Positions 8,672-48,948 of a DNA stretch of 64,000 bases are shown here, one piece after another (position 1 is the first letter of the stretch; each line of letters begins with the position of its first letter). The notes below the pieces were generated by a model. The model had not been told where the DNA came from and did no database searches. It saw nothing but the letters and a program-made list of their open reading frames with translations. Source of the stretch: Clostridia bacterium (GTDB lineage: Bacteria > Bacillota > Clostridia > Oscillospirales > Acutalibacteraceae); NCBI GenBank assembly GCA_017631795.1, contig JAGBSO010000016.1:62001-126000 (forward strand), given 5' to 3'. A program made the translations under genes and the position numbers.

Positions 8672-10201
8672 TCAATCATCGCTGAAGATTGTTTTCAGCG
8701 ACACCGAAAACTGTGTGTACTTATTTTCAATATTACTGACAGAGATTTTTCCATCGTGAAGTTCAACGATATTTTTAACGATGAACAAACCGAGACCTGC
8801 ACTTTTTGCATCAAGCCCTCTTGATTTGTCACCTTTATAGAATCGTTCAAAGACATGGTCAAGATCTTCGTCTTTTATAACATTTCCGGTGTTTCTTATA
8901 CAAACGATAACATTATTTTCTTGAATATACATTGAAAGAATTATATCACCGCCGGGCTGAGTGAATTTAACTGCATTATCTATAAGATTGTAAAAGACCT
9001 GATTTATCATATCGGGATCAGCTTCAATATAAACCTTTGAAAGAGAATCAAGGCCTTCTACATTAATTTTCTTAATATTTATTTTCTGCTCAAATGCGAT
9101 AAAAATACTGACTATCTGACGGGTAAGATCAAACCGGGACGGATTTATTTTCAGTTCACCGGCCTCCATTTTTGACATATTGAGCATAGAAACAACAAGT
9201 CGTGAAAGTCTTTTAACTTCATCCGAAACAATCTGCAGATAATAATTGCTGTCATCACCCTTGATTGTTCCGTCAAGAATTCCGTCAATAAATCCGCCGA
9301 TGGTTGTCATCGGTGTTTTTAATTCGTGTGATACGTTTGCAACAAAATTTGCTCTTGAATTCTCAAGCTGTTCCAGACTTTCTGCCATTGAATTGATTTC
9401 TGCGGCAAGTTCATCAAATTCTCTTACAGAACTTCTTTCACGCACTTTTATACGGTGTGAAAAATCGCCCTTTGCATATTTTTTTGCTGCGTCACCCATG
9501 TCGCTTACAATTTTACCGAGATTATATGTCAACAGATAAACAACCAATCCCGTTATTATGATAAATCCGATTGCTACAAACGTATAGTCTCTTACAAAAG
9601 TCATTATATGACGTGCAATACCTGCTCTGTAATTCTGAGTGGCAAAAACGATAGCATCGGTTTCAGCTCCGAATTGCCGACGCGATACACATGCAGCAAT
9701 GAAATAGTCTTCATCAAAATATCCGCCGGGATTACCGATTGTTGCCATAATTCCGTCAGCGATGATACCGGTCACAATCTCACCGGGTATCTTCATTTCA
9801 GAATGCTCCTGACATGCTCTTCCGAAATTCTGAATATCATTAGCCTTTGCCAGATGTCCGCAGAATATAACGTTTCCCGACACATCAGCAATAAAAAAAT
9901 CTGCCTTTGATGCTTTTGACGCACTTTCAATGGCATAGCACAGCATTGAAAAAGCATTATCATCGGCAGAATTTTTTTGGATATAATCCTGATAGACCTG
10001 TGCTATATCCTGAGTGTAACTATACAGACCTTGTTTTTGTTCATCTTCCCACATACCGTTAAGAATAAACGGCATGACACTTCCTAAAACAATAAGACTG
10101 ACAATTTCGACAGATAAAAATATTATGATGTATCTTGTTAAAAGACTGACTCTTCTGCGACCTTTTTCTTTAGAGAAATGCATAAGATGTCGACCTTTCA
10201 T
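8672..10201 (-). CDS. Two-component sensor histidine kinase
   Basis: The ATG at 10201 overlaps the regulator's TGA stop (TGATG), suggesting coupled translation; an internal ATG at 10183 preceded by AAAGG is an alternative start. The 509-residue protein has two transmembrane helices (about 20-45 and 206-226) around an extracytoplasmic sensor region, a HAMP linker, a HisKA domain with phospho-acceptor His292 in NVSHELKTP, and a HATPase domain with NLIDNAVKF (N box) and SAGLGLFIVK (G2 box). It should autophosphorylate and pass phosphate to the regulator encoded just upstream. The signal is unknown; the co-operonic HtrA protease suggests envelope or secretion stress. Confidence 0.94.
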   Translation of the reverse strand: MKGRHLMHFSKEKGRRRVSLLTRYIIIFLSVEIVSLIVLGSVMPFILNGMWEDEQKQGLYSYTQDIAQVYQDYIQKNSADDNAFSMLCYAIESASKASKADFFIADVSGNVIFCGHLAKANDIQNFGRACQEHSEMKIPGEIVTGIIADGIMATIGNPGGYFDEDYFIAACVSRRQFGAETDAIVFATQNYRAGIARHIMTFVRDYTFVAIGFIIITGLVVYLLTYNLGKIVSDMGDAAKKYAKGDFSHRIKVRERSSVREFDELAAEINSMAESLEQLENSRANFVANVSHELKTPMTTIGGFIDGILDGTIKGDDSNYYLQIVSDEVKRLSRLVVSMLNMSKMEAGELKINPSRFDLTRQIVSIFIAFEQKINIKKINVEGLDSLSKVYIEADPDMINQVFYNLIDNAVKFTQPGGDIILSMYIQENNVIVCIRNTGNVIKDEDLDHVFERFYKGDKSRGLDAKSAGLGLFIVKNIVELHDGKISVSNIENKYTQFSVSLKTIFSDD

Positions 10202-21035: not shown

Positions 21036-21083
21036 CAAGAACGTGTCACTCTCGCAATGATGAGTGACACGTTCTTGTGTTTA
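21036..21083 (+). terminator. Long stem-loop after the TIR gene
   Basis: A perfect 16-bp stem (21036-21051 with 21062-21077) and 10-nt loop lie between the convergent TIR and M23 genes. Only a weak T-rich stretch follows, but the stability and position suit a (possibly bidirectional) terminator. Confidence 0.6.
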
Positions 21084-41547: not shown

Positions 41548-41576
41548 TTGACTTTTTAATTTAAGAGGCATATAAT
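41548..41576 (+). promoter_or_regulatory. Promoter of the phe-aro operon
   Basis: TTGACT (41548-41553) and a perfect TATAAT (41571-41576) are exactly 17 bp apart. The transcript should begin near 41583, leaving about 25 nt before the leader-peptide start. Confidence 0.88.
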
Positions 41577-41607
41577 TGAGGCAAATTTGGTTTCGAAGGT
41601 AATGAAT

Positions 41608-41715
41608 ATGAACTTAGCTCTTATCAGCGCAAGTGAATTTTTCTTTAGCTTTAGCGTAGTCTTTTTCTTTGGCTATGCTTATTTTGCGTTGAAAAAATTA
41701 CAAGTGAGAGCTTAA
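41608..41715 (+). CDS. Phe-rich leader peptide of the pheA-aro attenuator
   Basis: This 35-codon frame is too short to be found by length alone. ATG 41608 lies 7 bases from GAAGGT (41595-41600); an in-frame ATG at 41602 sits too close to that site. The peptide contains eight Phe (codons at 41638, 41641, 41644, 41650, 41662, 41665, 41668 and 41683) and two Tyr, with runs EFFFSF and VVFFFGYAYF. Its last codons (41695-41709) are part of the antiterminator stem. A ribosome that stalls on Phe codons leaves that segment free; one that reaches the stop at 41713 covers it. This is the layout of the enterobacterial pheA leader (pheL) control, here in a Gram-positive setting. Confidence 0.9.
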   Translation: MNLALISASEFFFSFSVVFFFGYAYFALKKLQVRA

Positions 41716-41789
41716 AATTTTTTAAAATTTGTTAAAATTTTGATTTGTACATCTCACTTGTAATTTCAGCAAGTGAGATTTTTTATTTT
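41695..41789 (+). promoter_or_regulatory. Transcription attenuator: antiterminator and terminator stems before pheA
   Basis: Segment 41695-41709 pairs perfectly over 15 bp with 41752-41766 (antiterminator). The same downstream segment (41751-41760) instead pairs over 10 bp with 41770-41779, forming a terminator with a 9-nt loop and a T-rich tail (41779-41789). The two structures exclude each other, and the upstream arm lies at the end of the leader peptide. Plentiful Phe-tRNA lets the ribosome mask the arm and favours the terminator; scarcity favours read-through into pheA. The mechanism is known for enterobacterial amino-acid operons; its working here is inferred from the sequence. Confidence 0.9.
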
Positions 41790-41805
41790 GAAAGGAAGTC
41801 CCGTT

Positions 41806-42894
41806 ATGTCAGACAAATTGAATGAAGCAAGAGAAATCATAAACAGAGTGGATGCTCAGATGGCAGAACTTTTTGTTCAGAGAATGAAAGCTGCCGAAAT
41901 GGTTTTTGAACACAAAAAAGAATACGGACTTCCGATTTTTGATGCGGCAAGAGAAGAAGCTGTTATTGAAAAAAATACCGCACTTATAGAAGAAGAGATT
42001 TACAAAGGATATTATTTTGAATATATAAAACATCTTATGGATGTTTCAAAAGAATATCAGTACCGTCTGCAGAACGGGCTCAAAGTTGCATACAGCGGAG
42101 TTCCCGGTGCATTTGCTCACATCGCAGCAGGAAAAATCTTCCCCGACAGCGACAGAATTTCCCACAGGGATTTCAAAGCAGCTTACAATGCTGTTGTGAA
42201 CGGTGAAGCAAATGTTGCAGTGCTTCCCATTGAAAACAGCTATGCAGGTGAAGTCGGTAAGACAATTGACCTTATCTTCACAGGCAGTCTTTTCATCAAC
42301 GGAATCTATGAGCTTGAAATTCATCAGAATCTGCTCGGCATTCAGGGTTCAACAGTCGATGACATCAGAAAAATCATAAGCCATCCGCAGGCACTCAGCC
42401 AGTGTCATGATTATATAAAACTCCGCGGTTTTGAAGTTGAAGAAGCAAACAATACAGCAATCGCAGCAAAAACAATTGCAGAACTTAATGATAAATCTCT
42501 CGGTGCTATTGCAAGTGCCGAAACCGCAAAGCTTTACGGTCTTAAAGTCCTTGAAGCCGATATCCATACAAGCGGAGAAAACACAACCCGTTTTGCCGTG
42601 CTTTCAAAAGTCAGAGCTGCTGCACCTTCTCTCACAAGCTCCGTGCTTATGTTTACCGTCAAAAACGAAGCAGGTTCACTTGCAAATGCAATCAGCATCA
42701 TCGGTAAATACGGCTACAATATGACTGCGCTCAGAAGCAGACCGCTCAGAAAACATTCATGGCAGTATTATTTCTATATAGAAATTGACGGCACAACAGA
42801 CACCGAAGACGGCAGAAAAATGATTGCAGAGCTGAACGATGTCTGCGATAAGCTTAAAGTTGCAGGAACTTTTGCACCGCACAGCGAAATATAG
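41806..42894 (+). CDS. pheA: Bifunctional chorismate mutase/prephenate dehydratase
   Basis: Start at ATG 41806 with AAAGGAAG upstream. The 362-residue enzyme converts chorismate to prephenate and then phenylpyruvate. An AroQ-type chorismate mutase domain fills residues 1-85 (INRVDAQMAELFVQRMKAAE, with Arg and Lys active-site residues), the prephenate dehydratase domain residues 88-265 (VAYSGVPGAFAHIAA, VLPIENSYAGEV, and the catalytic TTRF), and an ACT regulatory domain the C-terminus (EAGSLANAI ... ALRSRP, where Phe binds in relatives). This is the first structural gene of the shikimate operon and is probably feedback inhibited by Phe as well as attenuated by it. Confidence 0.97.
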   Translation: MSDKLNEAREIINRVDAQMAELFVQRMKAAEMVFEHKKEYGLPIFDAAREEAVIEKNTALIEEEIYKGYYFEYIKHLMDVSKEYQYRLQNGLKVAYSGVPGAFAHIAAGKIFPDSDRISHRDFKAAYNAVVNGEANVAVLPIENSYAGEVGKTIDLIFTGSLFINGIYELEIHQNLLGIQGSTVDDIRKIISHPQALSQCHDYIKLRGFEVEEANNTAIAAKTIAELNDKSLGAIASAETAKLYGLKVLEADIHTSGENTTRFAVLSKVRAAAPSLTSSVLMFTVKNEAGSLANAISIIGKYGYNMTALRSRPLRKHSWQYYFYIEIDGTTDTEDGRKMIAELNDVCDKLKVAGTFAPHSEI

Positions 42895-42904
42895 GAGTTT
42901 ATTT

Positions 42905-43912
42905 ATGAATATACATCTTGATTTAAAAGAAAACAGTTATGATATTATAGTTGAAAGAGGAATTCTTGCAAAAGCAGGAGAACATCTGAATCTTGACAGA
43001 CGTGTGCTTGTTGTAACTGACTCGGGAGTGCCTGAAATTTATGCAAAAACACTTGCGGCACAGTGCAAAACCCCTGTTATCTGCACGGTTGAAACAGGCG
43101 AAGCATCAAAAAGCCTTGAAACATTTTCAGAACTTCTCCGTCTGATGCTTGAAAACTCATTTTCAAGAAAAGACTGCGTTGTTGCAGTCGGCGGTGGTGT
43201 TGTGGGTGACCTTTCGGGTTTTGCGGCATCGGCATACATGAGAGGTGTTGATTTTTACAATATCCCCACAACTCTTCTTTCACAGATAGATTCATCCATA
43301 GGCGGAAAAACAGCCGTGAATTTCGGCGGAATAAAAAATATCGTGGGTGCATTCTATCAGCCGAAAAAGGTTCTTATAGACCCTGAACTTCTTGAAACAC
43401 TTCCCGAAAGACAGATTTCAAACGGTCTTGCAGAAGCCGTTAAAATGGCTCTGACTTCAGACGAAGAACTTTTTGAGATTTTTGAAAAAAAAGATATAAA
43501 CAAAAATATTGACGAAATAATCATACGTTCGCTGAACATCAAAAAGAGTGTGGTTGAGCAGGACGAAAAAGAATCGGGTCTGAGAAAAATCCTGAATTTC
43601 GGACACACAATCGGCCACGGAATTGAAGGCAGCGTGAATATGGAAGAACTTTATCACGGTGAATGCGTGGCTCTGGGAATCATTCCCATGTGTGATGAAA
43701 AAATCAGACCGAGAGTTATTGATGTGCTGAAAAAATGCAATCTTTATAATCTTATTGATTTTGACTGGGATAAAATCAGCAAGGTCATGTTCCACGATAA
43801 AAAAGCTGACGGTGACTCTGTTTCTGTAACAACAGTCAGCGAAATCGGAAAATTTGAAATCAGAACAATGAAATGCAGTCAGGTCATTGACATGGCAAAA
43901 ACTTGTCTGTGA
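42905..43912 (+). CDS. aroB: 3-dehydroquinate synthase
   Basis: Start at ATG 42905 after AGGAG, 10 bp from pheA. The 335-residue NAD- and metal-dependent enzyme turns DAHP into 3-dehydroquinate, the second shikimate step. Family motifs are VAVGGGVVGDLSGFAAS, IPTTLLSQIDSSIGGKTAVN, the metal ligands Glu (in NGLAEAVK) and His (GHTIGHGIEG and YHGECVALG). It is somewhat shorter at the C-terminus than E. coli AroB. Co-transcribed with the other aro genes. Confidence 0.97.
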   Translation: MNIHLDLKENSYDIIVERGILAKAGEHLNLDRRVLVVTDSGVPEIYAKTLAAQCKTPVICTVETGEASKSLETFSELLRLMLENSFSRKDCVVAVGGGVVGDLSGFAASAYMRGVDFYNIPTTLLSQIDSSIGGKTAVNFGGIKNIVGAFYQPKKVLIDPELLETLPERQISNGLAEAVKMALTSDEELFEIFEKKDINKNIDEIIIRSLNIKKSVVEQDEKESGLRKILNFGHTIGHGIEGSVNMEELYHGECVALGIIPMCDEKIRPRVIDVLKKCNLYNLIDFDWDKISKVMFHDKKADGDSVSVTTVSEIGKFEIRTMKCSQVIDMAKTCL

Positions 43913-43922
43913 GGGTGATGAA

Positions 43923-45017
43923 ATGAAAAATACATTCGGAAACAGCGTTGCTGTGACTCTTTTCGGTGAAAGCCACGGTGAATATATCGGTGCTGTCATA
44001 GACGGTCTTGCACCGGGAATTGAAATAAAAAGAGAATATATTGAGCATATGCTTTTTCTCAGACGCCCTGACGGAAAAATTTCCACACCCAGAAAAGAAA
44101 AAGATGAATTCAGAATTGTCAGCGGTATGATAAACGGCAAGACAACAGGAACACCCCTGACAATTCTCATACCTAATGAAAATGTGAACAGCTCCGATTA
44201 TGCTGAGCTTAAAACAGTTGCACGACCTGCCCATGCAGATTACACCGCACAGTGCAAATATCACGGCTATCAGGATTCAAGAGGCGGAGGACATTTCAGC
44301 GGAAGAATCACCGCAGCACTTGTTGCAGCAGGTGCAATCTGCAAATCTGCACTTGAAGCAAAAGGCATTTTCATCGGCACTCATGTGAAAAAATGTGCAG
44401 GGATTCAGGACAGAGATTTTAGTGATTATACTGCTGATATCACAGCTCTTGGTGAAAAGACCTTTGCTGTGCTGGACAGCAACTGCGAAGAACCCATGAA
44501 AAACAGCATCCTTGAAGCTGCGTCAGAGGGTGACAGCGTGGGCGGTGTGCTTGAAACTGCAATTATCGGAATTCCCGCAGGTGTCGGTGAGCCTTGGTTT
44601 GATTCAGCCGAAAGCATGCTTTCACACATGATGTTTTCAATTCCTGCAGTCAAGGGAATTGAATTCGGTGCAGGTTTCGGCATTGCAGACATGAAAGGAA
44701 GCACAGCCAACGATTCTCTGCGTATGAAAGACGGAAAAATTGTAACGGAAACCAACAATAACGGCGGTATAAACGGCGGAATCACAAACGGAATGCCCGT
44801 TATTTTCCGCACAGCAATAAAGCCTACTCCCACCATTTTCAAAGCTCAGGATACAGTTGATTTCATGAGTCTGACAGATGCTCTTATCGAGCCTAAAGGC
44901 AGACATGACCCTGCAATTGTCCACAGAGCAAGAGTTGTGCAGGATGCGGCTGCTGCAATCGTTATCTGCGATATGCTCAGCATGAGATTCGGCACAGATT
45001 GGTTGTGTGAATCATGA
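43923..45017 (+). CDS. aroC: Chorismate synthase
   Basis: Start at ATG 43923. The 364-residue FMN-dependent enzyme makes chorismate from EPSP. Diagnostic stretches are FGESHGEYIGAVIDGLAPG at the N-terminus, RPAHADYTAQCKY, SRGGGHFSGRITAALVAAGA, and GRHDPAIVHRARVV near the end. Its last bases overlap the start of the aroE-aroK fusion (ATGA). Confidence 0.97.
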   Translation: MKNTFGNSVAVTLFGESHGEYIGAVIDGLAPGIEIKREYIEHMLFLRRPDGKISTPRKEKDEFRIVSGMINGKTTGTPLTILIPNENVNSSDYAELKTVARPAHADYTAQCKYHGYQDSRGGGHFSGRITAALVAAGAICKSALEAKGIFIGTHVKKCAGIQDRDFSDYTADITALGEKTFAVLDSNCEEPMKNSILEAASEGDSVGGVLETAIIGIPAGVGEPWFDSAESMLSHMMFSIPAVKGIEFGAGFGIADMKGSTANDSLRMKDGKIVTETNNNGGINGGITNGMPVIFRTAIKPTPTIFKAQDTVDFMSLTDALIEPKGRHDPAIVHRARVVQDAAAAIVICDMLSMRFGTDWLCES

Positions 45018-46261
45018 AAAAGTACGGTTGCATAGGCAAAAAACTCACTCACAGTTTTTCAAAAGAAATCCATGCAAAACTTGCAGATTATGAATATGAA
45101 CTCATCGAGCTGAGTGAAGATGAAATTGCTGATTTTTTCAGTAAAAAAGATTTCAGCGCAATAAATGTCACAATTCCTTATAAGCAGACTGTTATCCCTT
45201 ATCTTGATTCCATGAGCGATGTTGCAAAGCGAATCGGTGCTGTCAACACTATCGTCAACAAAGACGGCAGACTTTACGGCTACAATACCGATTACTACGG
45301 AATGAAAGCTCTTATTGAAAAAAACGGAATTGATATAAACGGCAGAAAAGTGCTTATTCTCGGCACAGGAGGTACAAGCAAAACTGCACGTGTGCTCACA
45401 GCAGATATGGGTGCTTCCGAAGTGCTGACAGTCAGCAGAAGCAAAAGTGAAAATCACATAACATACGAAGAAGCAGTAAATGAGCATTCCGATGCTCAGG
45501 TTATAATAAACACAACTCCCGCGGGAATGTATCCCGACTGCGAATCACAGCCGATTGATTTTTCACTTTTTGAGAAACTTGAAGGCGTTGTCGATGCTGT
45601 GTATAACCCGCTTTGCACAAATCTTGTTATGAATGCAAAGGAAAAAGGCATAAAAGCAGATTGCGGACTTTACATGCTCGTAATGCAGGCTGTTGTTGCA
45701 GTGGAAAAATTCATTGATACGCAAATTCCGAAAGCTGCCGCAGAGGGTGTTTTCAGTGAAATTTATGCATCAAAGGAAAACATCATCCTGACAGGTATGC
45801 CCGGAAGCGGAAAAAGCACAGTGGGCAGACTTCTTGAAATTGACGGATTCGGTTTTGTTGACACGGATGAAGAAATTGTCAAACGATGCGGATGTGAGAT
45901 AAAAGACCTTATCAGCGAAAAAGGCGAAAAATATTTCCGCGACATTGAAACGGAAGTTATAAAAGATGTTTCTTCAGAAGGCTGTCAGATAATTTCCACA
46001 GGCGGCGGTGCTGTGCTTCGTCAGGAAAACGTGAAAGCCCTGAAACGAAACGGAAAAATCTTCTTTATCAATGCAGATTTTACAAGACTTTGTCCCACAG
46101 ATGACAGACCGCTTTCAGACACAGCGGACAAACTGAAAAAACTGTATAACGAAAGAATTGATATTTATAAAGCAACTGCAGATGTTGTTGTGCCCGATAT
46201 GGCAACACCTGAAGAGGAAGCAGAATATATTATAAAAACAAGAAAAGAGATGATTTTGTGA
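45014..46261 (+). CDS. Shikimate dehydrogenase-shikimate kinase fusion
   Basis: The ATG overlaps the aroC stop by four bases. The 415-residue protein joins two normally separate enzymes. Residues 1-250 are shikimate dehydrogenase (AroE): GKKLTHSFSKEIHAKL, NVTIPYKQT with the catalytic Lys, GYNTDYYG, and LGTGGTSKTARV for NADP. Residues 252-415 are shikimate kinase (AroK): GMPGSGKSTVGR (P-loop), VDTDEEI, FRDIETEV, STGGGAV and RPLS. It therefore reduces 3-dehydroshikimate and phosphorylates the product, covering two consecutive steps. Such fusions occur in some Clostridia and other anaerobes. Confidence 0.96.
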   Translation: MKKYGCIGKKLTHSFSKEIHAKLADYEYELIELSEDEIADFFSKKDFSAINVTIPYKQTVIPYLDSMSDVAKRIGAVNTIVNKDGRLYGYNTDYYGMKALIEKNGIDINGRKVLILGTGGTSKTARVLTADMGASEVLTVSRSKSENHITYEEAVNEHSDAQVIINTTPAGMYPDCESQPIDFSLFEKLEGVVDAVYNPLCTNLVMNAKEKGIKADCGLYMLVMQAVVAVEKFIDTQIPKAAAEGVFSEIYASKENIILTGMPGSGKSTVGRLLEIDGFGFVDTDEEIVKRCGCEIKDLISEKGEKYFRDIETEVIKDVSSEGCQIISTGGGAVLRQENVKALKRNGKIFFINADFTRLCPTDDRPLSDTADKLKKLYNERIDIYKATADVVVPDMATPEEEAEYIIKTRKEMIL

Positions 46262-46686
46262 AAATTCTTGTTATAAACGGACCGAATATAAATATGCTCG
46301 GCATAAGAGAGCCTGAGCATTACGGAAAAGAGACATATTCAGACCTTACGGCAAAAATTCAGAATCATTGCGATGCAAAAAACATAGATGTTAAGATTTA
46401 TCAGTCAAATCACGAGGGTGACCTTGTGGATGAAATCCAGAAAGCATACGGCAATGCAGACGGAATTGTCATAAATCCCGGTGCATACACCCACACAAGC
46501 ATTGCTATTCTTGATGCTGTAAAATCCGTAAACATTCCGACTGTTGAAGTGCATATTTCAAAGGTTGAAGAAAGAGAAGATTTCAGACAGATAAGTTATA
46601 TCCGTCTTGCATGTGTAAAGACAATCACAGGTCACGGCACAGACGGTTATCTTGAAGCAATTGATTATCTGACAGAAGGTAAATGA
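46258..46686 (+). CDS. aroQ: Type II 3-dehydroquinate dehydratase
   Basis: The start is GTG at 46258, overlapping the fusion's TGA (GTGA). The 142-residue cytoplasmic enzyme removes water from 3-dehydroquinate. It is the small type II enzyme: INGPNINMLGIREPEHYG at the N-terminus with the catalytic Tyr of the lid nearby, QSNHEGDLVDEI, INPGAYTHTSIAILDA and VEVHISKVEEREDFR. Length is normal for the family, which forms dodecamers. Confidence 0.97.
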   Translation: MKILVINGPNINMLGIREPEHYGKETYSDLTAKIQNHCDAKNIDVKIYQSNHEGDLVDEIQKAYGNADGIVINPGAYTHTSIAILDAVKSVNIPTVEVHISKVEEREDFRQISYIRLACVKTITGHGTDGYLEAIDYLTEGK

Positions 46687-46687
46687 C

Positions 46688-47893
46688 ATGAAAGCGATTT
46701 TTAGTCCTTGCAGTTTGCAGGGAAATATAAATGCACCGCCGTCAAAAAGCATGGCACACAGATATCTTATCGGTGCTGCATTGTCGGGTGCAGAATGTGC
46801 AATTTCAGGTATTCAGTACAGCGAAGACATTCTCGCAACAATTGATTGTCTTAAAGTTCTCGGAGCTGAAATCAGCACAAAAAACGACACCGTTATCATA
46901 AATCCCGAAAACTTTATGAAAACGGATTTTCAGGTGCTTCATTGCAGAGAAAGCGGAAGCACACTGAGGTTTTTCATACCCCTTGCACTGTGTACAGGCA
47001 AAGAAATCACATTGCAGGGCAGTGAAAGACTCTTTGAAAGACCCCTTGATATCTATGAAAAACTGTGTGCGGAAAATGGTTTTGAATTCAGAAAAAATGC
47101 AGATTCCGTCACACTTTGCGGAAATCTTAAAAGCGGAGAATATGAAATCAACGGCAGTATAAGCAGTCAGTTTATCACAGGTCTTATTTTTGCACTTGTG
47201 TATCTGAATGAAGACGCTTCTGTTAAAATCATTCCGCCATTTGAAAGCAGGTCTTATATAAATCTCACACTGTCAGCGCTGAAATCATTCGGAGCAGATG
47301 CTGAATTCACCGATGAATACACCGTTTCAGTCAGAAAATCGGCACTTCATCCCTTTTCAGGCTCGGTTGAAGGTGATTATTCAAATGCAGCATTCCTTGA
47401 TGCATTCAATTACATCGGCTCAGATGTGAAAATCGGCAATCTGAAAGCAGACAGCCTTCAGGGAGACAAGGTTTATAAGGCTTTTTTTGAAGAAATTGCA
47501 GATGGTACACCCACTCTTGATATTTCAGATTGTCCAGACCTAGGACCTGTACTCATAGCTCTTGCATCACTTAAAAACGGTGCTGTGCTTACAGGCACAG
47601 ACCGATTGAAGATAAAGGAAAGTGACCGCGGACAGGTAATGCACGAAGAGCTCGGAAAACTCGGCGGCGGACTGATTTTCGGTGACAACTCTATAACCGT
47701 CCCGAAGCTTGAAAATGTGAAAAACACCACAGTTCTTGACGGACATAACGACCACCGTATTGTTATGGCAATATCGCTGATTCTTTCGGTTTACGGTGGT
47801 GAAATCGACGGCGCAGAAGCTGTTAGAAAAAGTTATCCCTCATTTTTTGAGGATATAAAAAAGTCAGGAGCAAAAGTAACGGTTATTTTATAA
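46688..47893 (+). CDS. aroA: EPSP synthase (3-phosphoshikimate 1-carboxyvinyltransferase)
   Basis: The ATG lies one base after the aroQ stop. The 401-residue enzyme joins PEP to shikimate 3-phosphate. Motifs: PPSKSMAHRYLIGAAL (N-terminal Lys and Ser), CRESGSTLRFFIPL, SSQFITGLIFA, GDYSNAAFLDAF, LKIKESDRG and DGHNDHRIVMA. The LCTGKE segment replaces the LxGNAGT loop near the glyphosate site, so the glyphosate class cannot be assigned by eye. Slightly shorter than E. coli AroA. Confidence 0.96.
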   Translation: MKAIFSPCSLQGNINAPPSKSMAHRYLIGAALSGAECAISGIQYSEDILATIDCLKVLGAEISTKNDTVIINPENFMKTDFQVLHCRESGSTLRFFIPLALCTGKEITLQGSERLFERPLDIYEKLCAENGFEFRKNADSVTLCGNLKSGEYEINGSISSQFITGLIFALVYLNEDASVKIIPPFESRSYINLTLSALKSFGADAEFTDEYTVSVRKSALHPFSGSVEGDYSNAAFLDAFNYIGSDVKIGNLKADSLQGDKVYKAFFEEIADGTPTLDISDCPDLGPVLIALASLKNGAVLTGTDRLKIKESDRGQVMHEELGKLGGGLIFGDNSITVPKLENVKNTTVLDGHNDHRIVMAISLILSVYGGEIDGAEAVRKSYPSFFEDIKKSGAKVTVIL

Positions 47894-47919: not shown

Positions 47920-48948
47920 ATGAACATGAATTTCAAAAGAAAATTACCCATTCCCATGGAAATAAAGGCTCAGTATCCCGTAACAGCAGAGCTTGAAGCT
48001 CTTAAAGCAAAGCGTGATGCACAGATAAAAGCAGTTTTTGAAGGCAAAGATGATAAGTTTATTCTGATAATCGGACCTTGTTCTGCAGACCACGACGACA
48101 GCGTGATTGATTACATTTCAAGACTGAGAACTGTTCAGGATAAAGTTTCAGACAAAATCCTTATCATCCCCAGAATTTACACAAACAAACCCCGTACAAC
48201 AGGTGACGGATATAAGGGGATGCTTCATCAACCTGACCCCAACAAAGCAGAAGATGTGCTTGCAGGTGTTGTTGCAATCAGAAGTCTTCATATCAGAGCA
48301 ATGCAGGAAACAGGTTTCACTTGTGCTGATGAAATGCTTTACCCCGAAAATTACAGATACCTTAACGACGTGCTTTCATACGTTGCAGTCGGTGCAAGAT
48401 CAGTTGAAAATCAGAAACACCGTCTGACTGCAAGCGGACTTGATATCCCCGTAGGTATGAAAAACCCCACAGCAGGTGATATTTCAGTCATGATGAACTC
48501 AATCACTGCTGCACAGCATTCACACACATTCATTTACAGAGGCTGGGAAGTTGAAAGTCAGGGTAACCCCCTTGCCCATGCAATTCTCAGAGGTTATGTC
48601 AACAAACACGGTCAGTCAATGCCAAACTACCATTACGAAGATCTTATTCATCTTGCAGAAACATACGAAAAATCAGGTCTTGCAAATCCTGCTGTTATCA
48701 TCGACACAAACCATGCAAACTCAGGCAAAAAGTGGATGGAGCAGCCCAGAATCGCTAAGGAAATTCTTCAGTCATGCCGTAATTGCACAGATGTGAAGAA
48801 AATCGTGAAAGGTCTTATGATTGAGAGTTACATTGAAGACGGTGCTCAGAAACCCGAAGAATGTGTCTACGGCAAATCAATCACAGACCCTTGTCTCGGC
48901 TGGGAAAAAACAGAAAGACTCATTCTTGATCTTGCAGAAATTCTCTGA
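47920..48948 (+). CDS. 3-deoxy-7-phosphoheptulonate (DAHP) synthase, type I-alpha
   Basis: CGGAGG precedes the ATG. The 342-residue enzyme condenses PEP with erythrose 4-phosphate, the committing step of the pathway. It is of the AroFGH type: LIIGPCSADHDDS, IPRIYTNKPRTTGDGYKGM, ADEMLYPENYRY, GARSVENQKHR, GMKNPTAGD, HTFIYRG, and the metal-binding DTNHANSGKKW. Placing it last in the operon, behind the attenuator, would put pathway entry and exit under one Phe-linked control. Feedback specificity cannot be read by eye. Confidence 0.96.
   Translation: MNMNFKRKLPIPMEIKAQYPVTAELEALKAKRDAQIKAVFEGKDDKFILIIGPCSADHDDSVIDYISRLRTVQDKVSDKILIIPRIYTNKPRTTGDGYKGMLHQPDPNKAEDVLAGVVAIRSLHIRAMQETGFTCADEMLYPENYRYLNDVLSYVAVGARSVENQKHRLTASGLDIPVGMKNPTAGDISVMMNSITAAQHSHTFIYRGWEVESQGNPLAHAILRGYVNKHGQSMPNYHYEDLIHLAETYEKSGLANPAVIIDTNHANSGKKWMEQPRIAKEILQSCRNCTDVKKIVKGLMIESYIEDGAQKPEECVYGKSITDPCLGWEKTERLILDLAEIL

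Follow-up and report, generated by a model that had tools for sequence, protein, structure and literature searches.

A conserved Phe/Tyr leader, very probably a ribosome-mediated attenuator, ahead of a pheA-aro operon in Clostridia

The analysed stretch of 64,000 nucleotides from the genome of an uncultured gut Clostridia bacterium, referred to here as the window, harbors a cluster of aromatic biosynthesis genes on its forward strand. The first of these, pheA (41806-42894, start codon ATG at 41806), encodes a chorismate mutase-prephenate dehydratase and is followed by aroB (42905-43912), aroC (43923-45017), an aroE-aroK fusion (45014-46261), aroQ for a type II dehydroquinase (46258-46686), aroA (46688-47893) and the DAHP synthase gene aroF (47920-48948). 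The pheA product is a clear match that stays below the NCBIfam equivalog cut-off, and the products of aroE-aroK and aroA also fall below this cut-off; none of the three has a better match. The order of pheA and the aro genes is as claimed in an earlier sequence-only reading of the locus, and the stretch from pheA to aroF probably represents a whole shikimate-Phe operon. Since the aroF product is the sole PF00793 protein found in the genome, a switch ahead of this operon should set the entry into the shikimate pathway.

Upstream of pheA, on the same strand, a sigma-70-type promoter (TTGACT-17-TATAAT, 41548-41576) matches the consensus at 11 of 12 positions. It precedes a Shine-Dalgarno-like ribosome-binding site, GAAGG (41595-41599), which is located 8 nt ahead of an ATG at 41608, and a leader peptide ORF of 35 codons (41608-41715) including eight Phe and two Tyr codons, with the translation MNLALISASEFFFSFSVVFFFGYAYFALKKLQVRA up to its stop. 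Within this leader, 3′ of the last aromatic codon, segment 2 (41695-41709) is the exact reverse complement of segment 3 (41752-41766), so that both can form a perfect antiterminator of 15 bp. The alternative partner of segment 3, via 41751-41760, is segment 4 (41770-41779); this 10-bp helix and the subsequent TTTTT of the U tract constitute an intrinsic terminator (41751-41785). Hence, a mutually exclusive antiterminator and intrinsic terminator are found ahead of the first structural gene. Promoter, leader, ribosome site and these two pairings agree base for base with the sequence-only reading, which had missed two further ones. Segment 1 (41630-41643, CAAGUGAAUUUUUC; family form CAAGUAAAUAUUUC) pairs with 41691-41704 in a helix 1:2, and a hairpin inside the leader (41653-41679, AGCGUAGUC / GGCUAUGCU; family form AGCGUAGYC/GGCUAUGCU) is seen in the MFE fold, with the F-F-F codons (F-Y-F in the family) in its loop.

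The Phe fraction of the leader alone is unexceptional. Among 788 mechanical ORFs of 20-60 codons, some few are equally F-rich, and Phe richness was rejected as sole evidence since several chance ORFs in the window reach it as well. Inverted repeats of at least 15 bp with a spacing of at most 60 nt occur just twice in the 64-kb window. Shuffling the local region 300 times or the window five times produced no such repeat. The other perfect repeat of this kind is located at 21036-21077 (CAAGAACGTGTCACTC, loop of about 10 nt). Folding of the leader region is 3.8 SD better than that of its shuffles, and the only terminator-like site in the segment examined, with 0.2 expected, lies at the leader region.

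A PheA scan of 84,980 species genomes yielded 80 loci. The sequence-only reading had named homologous upstream regions lacking the Phe-rich frame as evidence against itself and had proposed a search of relatives for conserved Phe codons and covarying stems. A leader of the same family is present upstream of pheA in 20 fetched loci and in the same-genus genome G322, i.e. in 21 other genomes (22 sequences with the window), and both the conserved codons and the covarying stems were found. In the leader consensus, MNLALxNASKYFFxFSVAFYFGYAYFAxKKLLVRA, the aromatic positions are kept: the aromatic columns of the control stretch hold F or Y in 195 of 200 cells, with eight F/Y swaps, and the other positions are changed in 34 of 160 (Fisher p=7e-9 for F/Y retention versus non-aromatic change, with cells counted without correction for relatedness). 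Insertions and deletions in the leader are single whole codons (L015, L017, L062, L020), and the linker 3′ of the leader varies freely, with a minor-base frequency of 0.32 versus about 0.08 in codons 8-34. Almost all relatives have the TTGAC and TATAAT-like boxes in the corresponding position, L024 being an exception. With eight Phe and two Tyr codons out of 35 in the window, and with frame and F/Y positions conserved in 22 genomes, the ORF has the features of a short leader rich in end-product codons, and this conservation together with the ribosome-binding site suggests that it is translated. Third codon positions of the leader are conserved, too; because RNA pairing constrains them, the substitution bias between codon positions was set aside as a proof of translation.

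Four pairings are conserved in the family, namely 1:2, the in-leader hairpin, the antiterminator 2:3 and the terminator 3:4. Across the 22 sequences, helix 1:2 (CAAGUAAAUAUUUC with GAAAAAGUUACUUG) is paired in 94.7% of cells and is weak in the window itself (-2.4 kcal/mol). The in-leader hairpin is 97.5% paired, including three pairs with both sides changed (AU to CG/GC, CG to UA). The terminator helix (CCUCACUUG with CAAGUGAGG, followed by U), for which the terminator scan counted 11 pairs, is 99.0% paired. Taken together, these three pairings are formed in 96.8% of 659 cells with seven pairs changed on both sides; none of 500 shuffles attains any of the five covariation measures, and slid controls are 34-50% paired. 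The antiterminator (GUUAC..GUGAG with CUCAC..GUAAC in the family) is 98.2% paired and contains two pairs with double changes, a result reached by 10 of 500 shuffles. In the window it is fully paired, with AA where most relatives have UU opposite UU. In a first alignment of 20 sequences, which did not include the in-leader hairpin, covariation was not clearly above shuffles; it became so once two more diverged sequences and this hairpin were included. As frame, aromatic codons and all pairings are kept in 21 other genomes, chance is excluded on the basis of sequence conservation.

The leader label clusters on the pheA tree, requiring 5 changes versus 19.6 when shuffled, and one well-supported clade of 13, with the window among them, is uniform for it. 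In a sample of 300 genomes of the family, just seven matched the RNA model, which makes the element patchy; four of these matches score below 50 bits, and one of the four (L095) is not a leader. Very similar PheA/aro loci were also observed in MAGs labelled Treponema bryantii, Eggerthellaceae and Erysipelothrix (L080, L076 and L038), which reflect either lateral transfer or mis-binned contigs.

The response of the RNA to translation was modelled by folding with the ribosome footprint masked and with the transcript extending up to the terminator loop, i.e. before segment 4. In the window, the probability of 2:3 is 0.98-1.00 for a ribosome on any of the F/Y codons and 0.00 for all positions between K30 and the stop; the RNA folding suggested by the sequence-only reading thus shows a switch just past the last aromatic codon. 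With segment 4 present, the terminator probability is about 1.0 from L28 onward. A ribosome stalled at the control codons accordingly frees segment 2 in the model and a ribosome at the stop masks it, a geometry that is less clean in some relatives: at some F/Y codons, several of them have 1:2 or other folds as competitors of the antiterminator. When segment 4 was included, equilibrium folding of three relatives gave preference to the terminator for most placements of the ribosome, which implies that the switch must be kinetic there. As sole test of switching, equilibrium folding of this kind is uninformative for the relatives, and the transcript before segment 4 was folded instead. With a ribosome placed early in the leader, the antiterminator already prevails in the modelled fold of the window, and the specificity of the sensor hence depends on that of stalling. 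Partial read-through is predicted for the window without a ribosome because 1:2 is weak.

Conserved leader, segments, terminator and covariation support the ribosome-mediated attenuation proposed from the sequence, and we consider it very probable that the locus is a transcription attenuator with the classical anatomy. RNA polymerase would start near 41583, after which a ribosome would begin the leader. The in-leader hairpin at 41653-41679 is a candidate RNA polymerase pause hairpin and may let the ribosome keep up. With plentiful charged tRNA-Phe (in relatives also tRNA-Tyr), the ribosome would translate the aromatic codons without delay, reach the stop at 41713 and cover segment 2, so that 3:4 pairs and transcription ends ahead of pheA. 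When Phe is short, it would stall at an F/Y codon (41638-41685), leaving segment 2 free to capture segment 3 ahead of the synthesis of segment 4, and the polymerase would read into pheA-aroB-aroC-aroEK-aroQ-aroA-aroF. As the modelled ribosome switches the fold just past the last aromatic codon, stalling for charged tRNA-Phe would translate into read-through and smooth translation into termination. Both termination in the cell and the sensing of charged tRNA are what we infer from this arrangement.

Different mechanisms could make use of the same elements. The conserved peptide SFSVAFYFGYAYFA might act like TnaC, which responds to Trp, and itself arrest the ribosome when free Phe or Tyr is present in the exit tunnel, and the conservation of the non-aromatic residues S, V, A, G, K, L and V in the leader would fit such a role. 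However, RNA constraint accounts for these residues, given that third codon positions are kept and that the codons for S-V and G-Y-A lie in the arms of the covarying in-leader hairpin. In addition, F and Y interchange at several positions (eight swaps), and induction by free Phe would be backwards for a biosynthetic operon, which leaves sensing through the nascent peptide very unlikely. Slightly less likely still is an incidental ORF in an RNA where an RNA-binding protein or a small-molecule riboswitch selects 2:3 versus 3:4. The strong nucleotide conservation in codons 8-34 and the conservation of several helices are compatible with this, but the conserved start and frame, single-codon indels and retention of F/Y codons speak against it, the aromatic codons stop just ahead of the folding switch point, and an unrelated RNA with a Phe/Tyr-rich ORF, described below, also precedes related aroF-pheA operons. 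Just as improbable is a terminator that only ends leftover upstream transcription or fixes a low expression level without any control by amino acids: leaderless terminator-like sites do occur before pheA in some relatives such as L026, yet the conserved promoter just upstream of the leader and the strictly complementary antiterminator kept within it are at odds with such a function. Control of pheA by a tRNA-binding T-box, the usual solution in Bacillota, is the least credible of all and is refuted for the leader locus by the scans, despite a T-box right before pheA in L036 and T-boxes elsewhere in the window genome, as no Rfam 15 family, T-box included, matches at gathering or relaxed thresholds, and neither a match to the T-box covariance model (RF00230) with its GGUGGNACC antiterminator bulge nor a GGUGG(N)ACC motif was found here.

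Returning to the attenuator, its codons indicate what it may sense. The sequence-only reading spoke of a Phe leader, which holds for the window with its eight Phe codons; across the family, Phe plus Tyr codons are the rule. Most relatives have about four Tyr codons in the leader and tyrA in the operon (pheA-tyrA-aroF, or tyrA before aroF), and therefore the ancestral sensor probably reads both Phe and Tyr. Tyr codons are fewest in the leader of the window, in which two sites that are Tyr in the consensus are occupied by Phe. No PF02153 protein (prephenate dehydrogenase, tyrA) was found in the window genome G000, which is 97.6% complete, and this domain is present in seven of seven same-genus genomes tested; judged by its gene content, the organism is a probable Tyr auxotroph. 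The proposal that Phe supply gates chorismate does not extend to Tyr in this genome, as a prephenate dehydrogenase is not detectable, and is retained for Phe and other uses through the sole PF00793 DAHP synthase found. Two of the four consensus Tyr codons are kept in the window, compared with 70 of 76 in tyrA-positive relatives (p=0.048). Two further tyrA-negative genomes have retained three (L024) and all four (L079, a genome of 1.2 Mb that is perhaps incomplete) of these codons (pooled p=0.10), so that a dependence of the leader codons on the pathway content is only suggestive.

The sequence-only reading had remarked that T-boxes are the more frequent choice in Gram-positive bacteria. In the window genome the two are not exclusive and coexist: besides the leader, the T-box model matches at nine other places, including pheST (specifier UUC), trpS and trpB (UGG) and leuA (CUC), the specifiers for Phe, Trp and Leu being read from alignments. 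Moreover, L036 carries a T-box (8680-8928) directly ahead of pheA at 9001, and its PheA falls among leader-type relatives, which suggests an exchange between leader and T-box. In L026, the 300 nt ahead of pheA have lost the leader ORF and retain the terminator-like CCTCGCTTG...CAAGTGAGG; some 2 kb upstream, a T-box motif precedes an ACT-domain gene. Four other same-genus genomes (L106-L109) possess a different operon, tyrA-aroB-aroA-aroC-pheA-aroEK, which is 28-47% identical and has no comparable leader. The operon of the window may therefore have been exchanged laterally together with its leader. Upstream of tyrA, these four genomes have an AT-rich repeat, TTCATTGCTTTAAAGTGTTGACATxxTxAAGAA, that overlaps with the -35 box, possibly as the binding site of a repressor.

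Another Phe/Tyr leader, MxNKFYFYYFxKGCPSxV, unrelated to that of the window, was detected at about 38 loci (L019, L022, L027 and about 35 more) upstream of aroF or pheA, nearly all with the order aroF-pheA. It has its own conserved set of GGGCUGCCCG, CGGACAGUCCGC and a terminator, and Rfam gave no match to it in L049 or L070. In other genera of the same family as the window organism, more distant leaders such as MTVSCAKKNYFFYFTLSFFFSWGFFAAKKYAVS lie ahead of a type I-beta DAHP synthase gene and aro genes (L092, 1501-1666; L093; L094, 1357-1521); their segment sequences differ, the layout is the same, and one contains a Trp codon.

The clade thus offers a natural experiment in the exchange of tRNA sensors, with leader and T-boxes side by side in one genome and a T-box in the place of the leader in L036. 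Bacillota have been classed at the phylum level as organisms with runaway, i.e. uncoupled, transcription (PMC13323073), in which case a ribosome lagging behind might not arrive in time; this counts against an attenuator. Conversely, a working ribosome-mediated attenuator would qualify the phylum-level class (PMC13323073), and since in classical attenuation the ribosome has to follow the polymerase closely, the conservation of the leader makes the runaway classification directly testable. We tentatively propose, as a possibility that is rather less than even, that aromatic leader attenuators are a standing class in gut Clostridia that works despite this classification, that the in-leader hairpin pauses the polymerase to give local coupling, and that the loss of tyrA went along with Tyr-to-Phe changes in the leader.

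The mechanism as such is already known. In the pheA leader of enterobacteria (Rfam Phe_leader, RF01859), a Phe-rich leader and mutually exclusive hairpins precede a terminator before pheA, and the Clostridia leader has all of these features in common with it. It differs by its 35-codon peptide, the Tyr codons of the family, the extra conserved hairpin inside the ORF and the six further aro ORFs downstream, including that of DAHP synthase; RF01859 has no match at the locus at the gathering threshold or at E values up to 10. As far as we found, a Phe/Tyr leader family in Clostridia is undescribed in the open-access literature, where no report of a Phe or Tyr leader before pheA or aro genes in this class was found. 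By description, it can be likened to the leader with Phe-Tyr-Phe codons of aroF, one of two DAHP synthase genes in the gram-positive Corynebacterium glutamicum (Actinomycetota) (PMC4046766), which fronts aroF, whereas the Clostridia leader fronts an aro operon beginning with pheA. Also by description, it is set apart from the uORFC-13-1 motif, in which a predicted promoter, a uORF with at least one Phe codon and a terminator lie upstream of aroF instead of pheA; Phe attenuation was proposed for this motif, reported with 24 examples only from Acholeplasma and environmental sequences (PMC8632094). The His leader of hisS/hisZ in bacilli (PMC2965389) and the Leu-rich ilv-leu attenuator of Staphylococcus aureus (PMC5794164) are likened by description as well: they represent ribosome-mediated attenuation alongside T-boxes, as here, for other amino acids and in Bacilli. 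Finally, the T-boxes of the window genome sense tRNA charging, too, and the one of pheST (UUC) shares the physiological input of the leader; unlike the leader, they bind tRNA directly and without translation.
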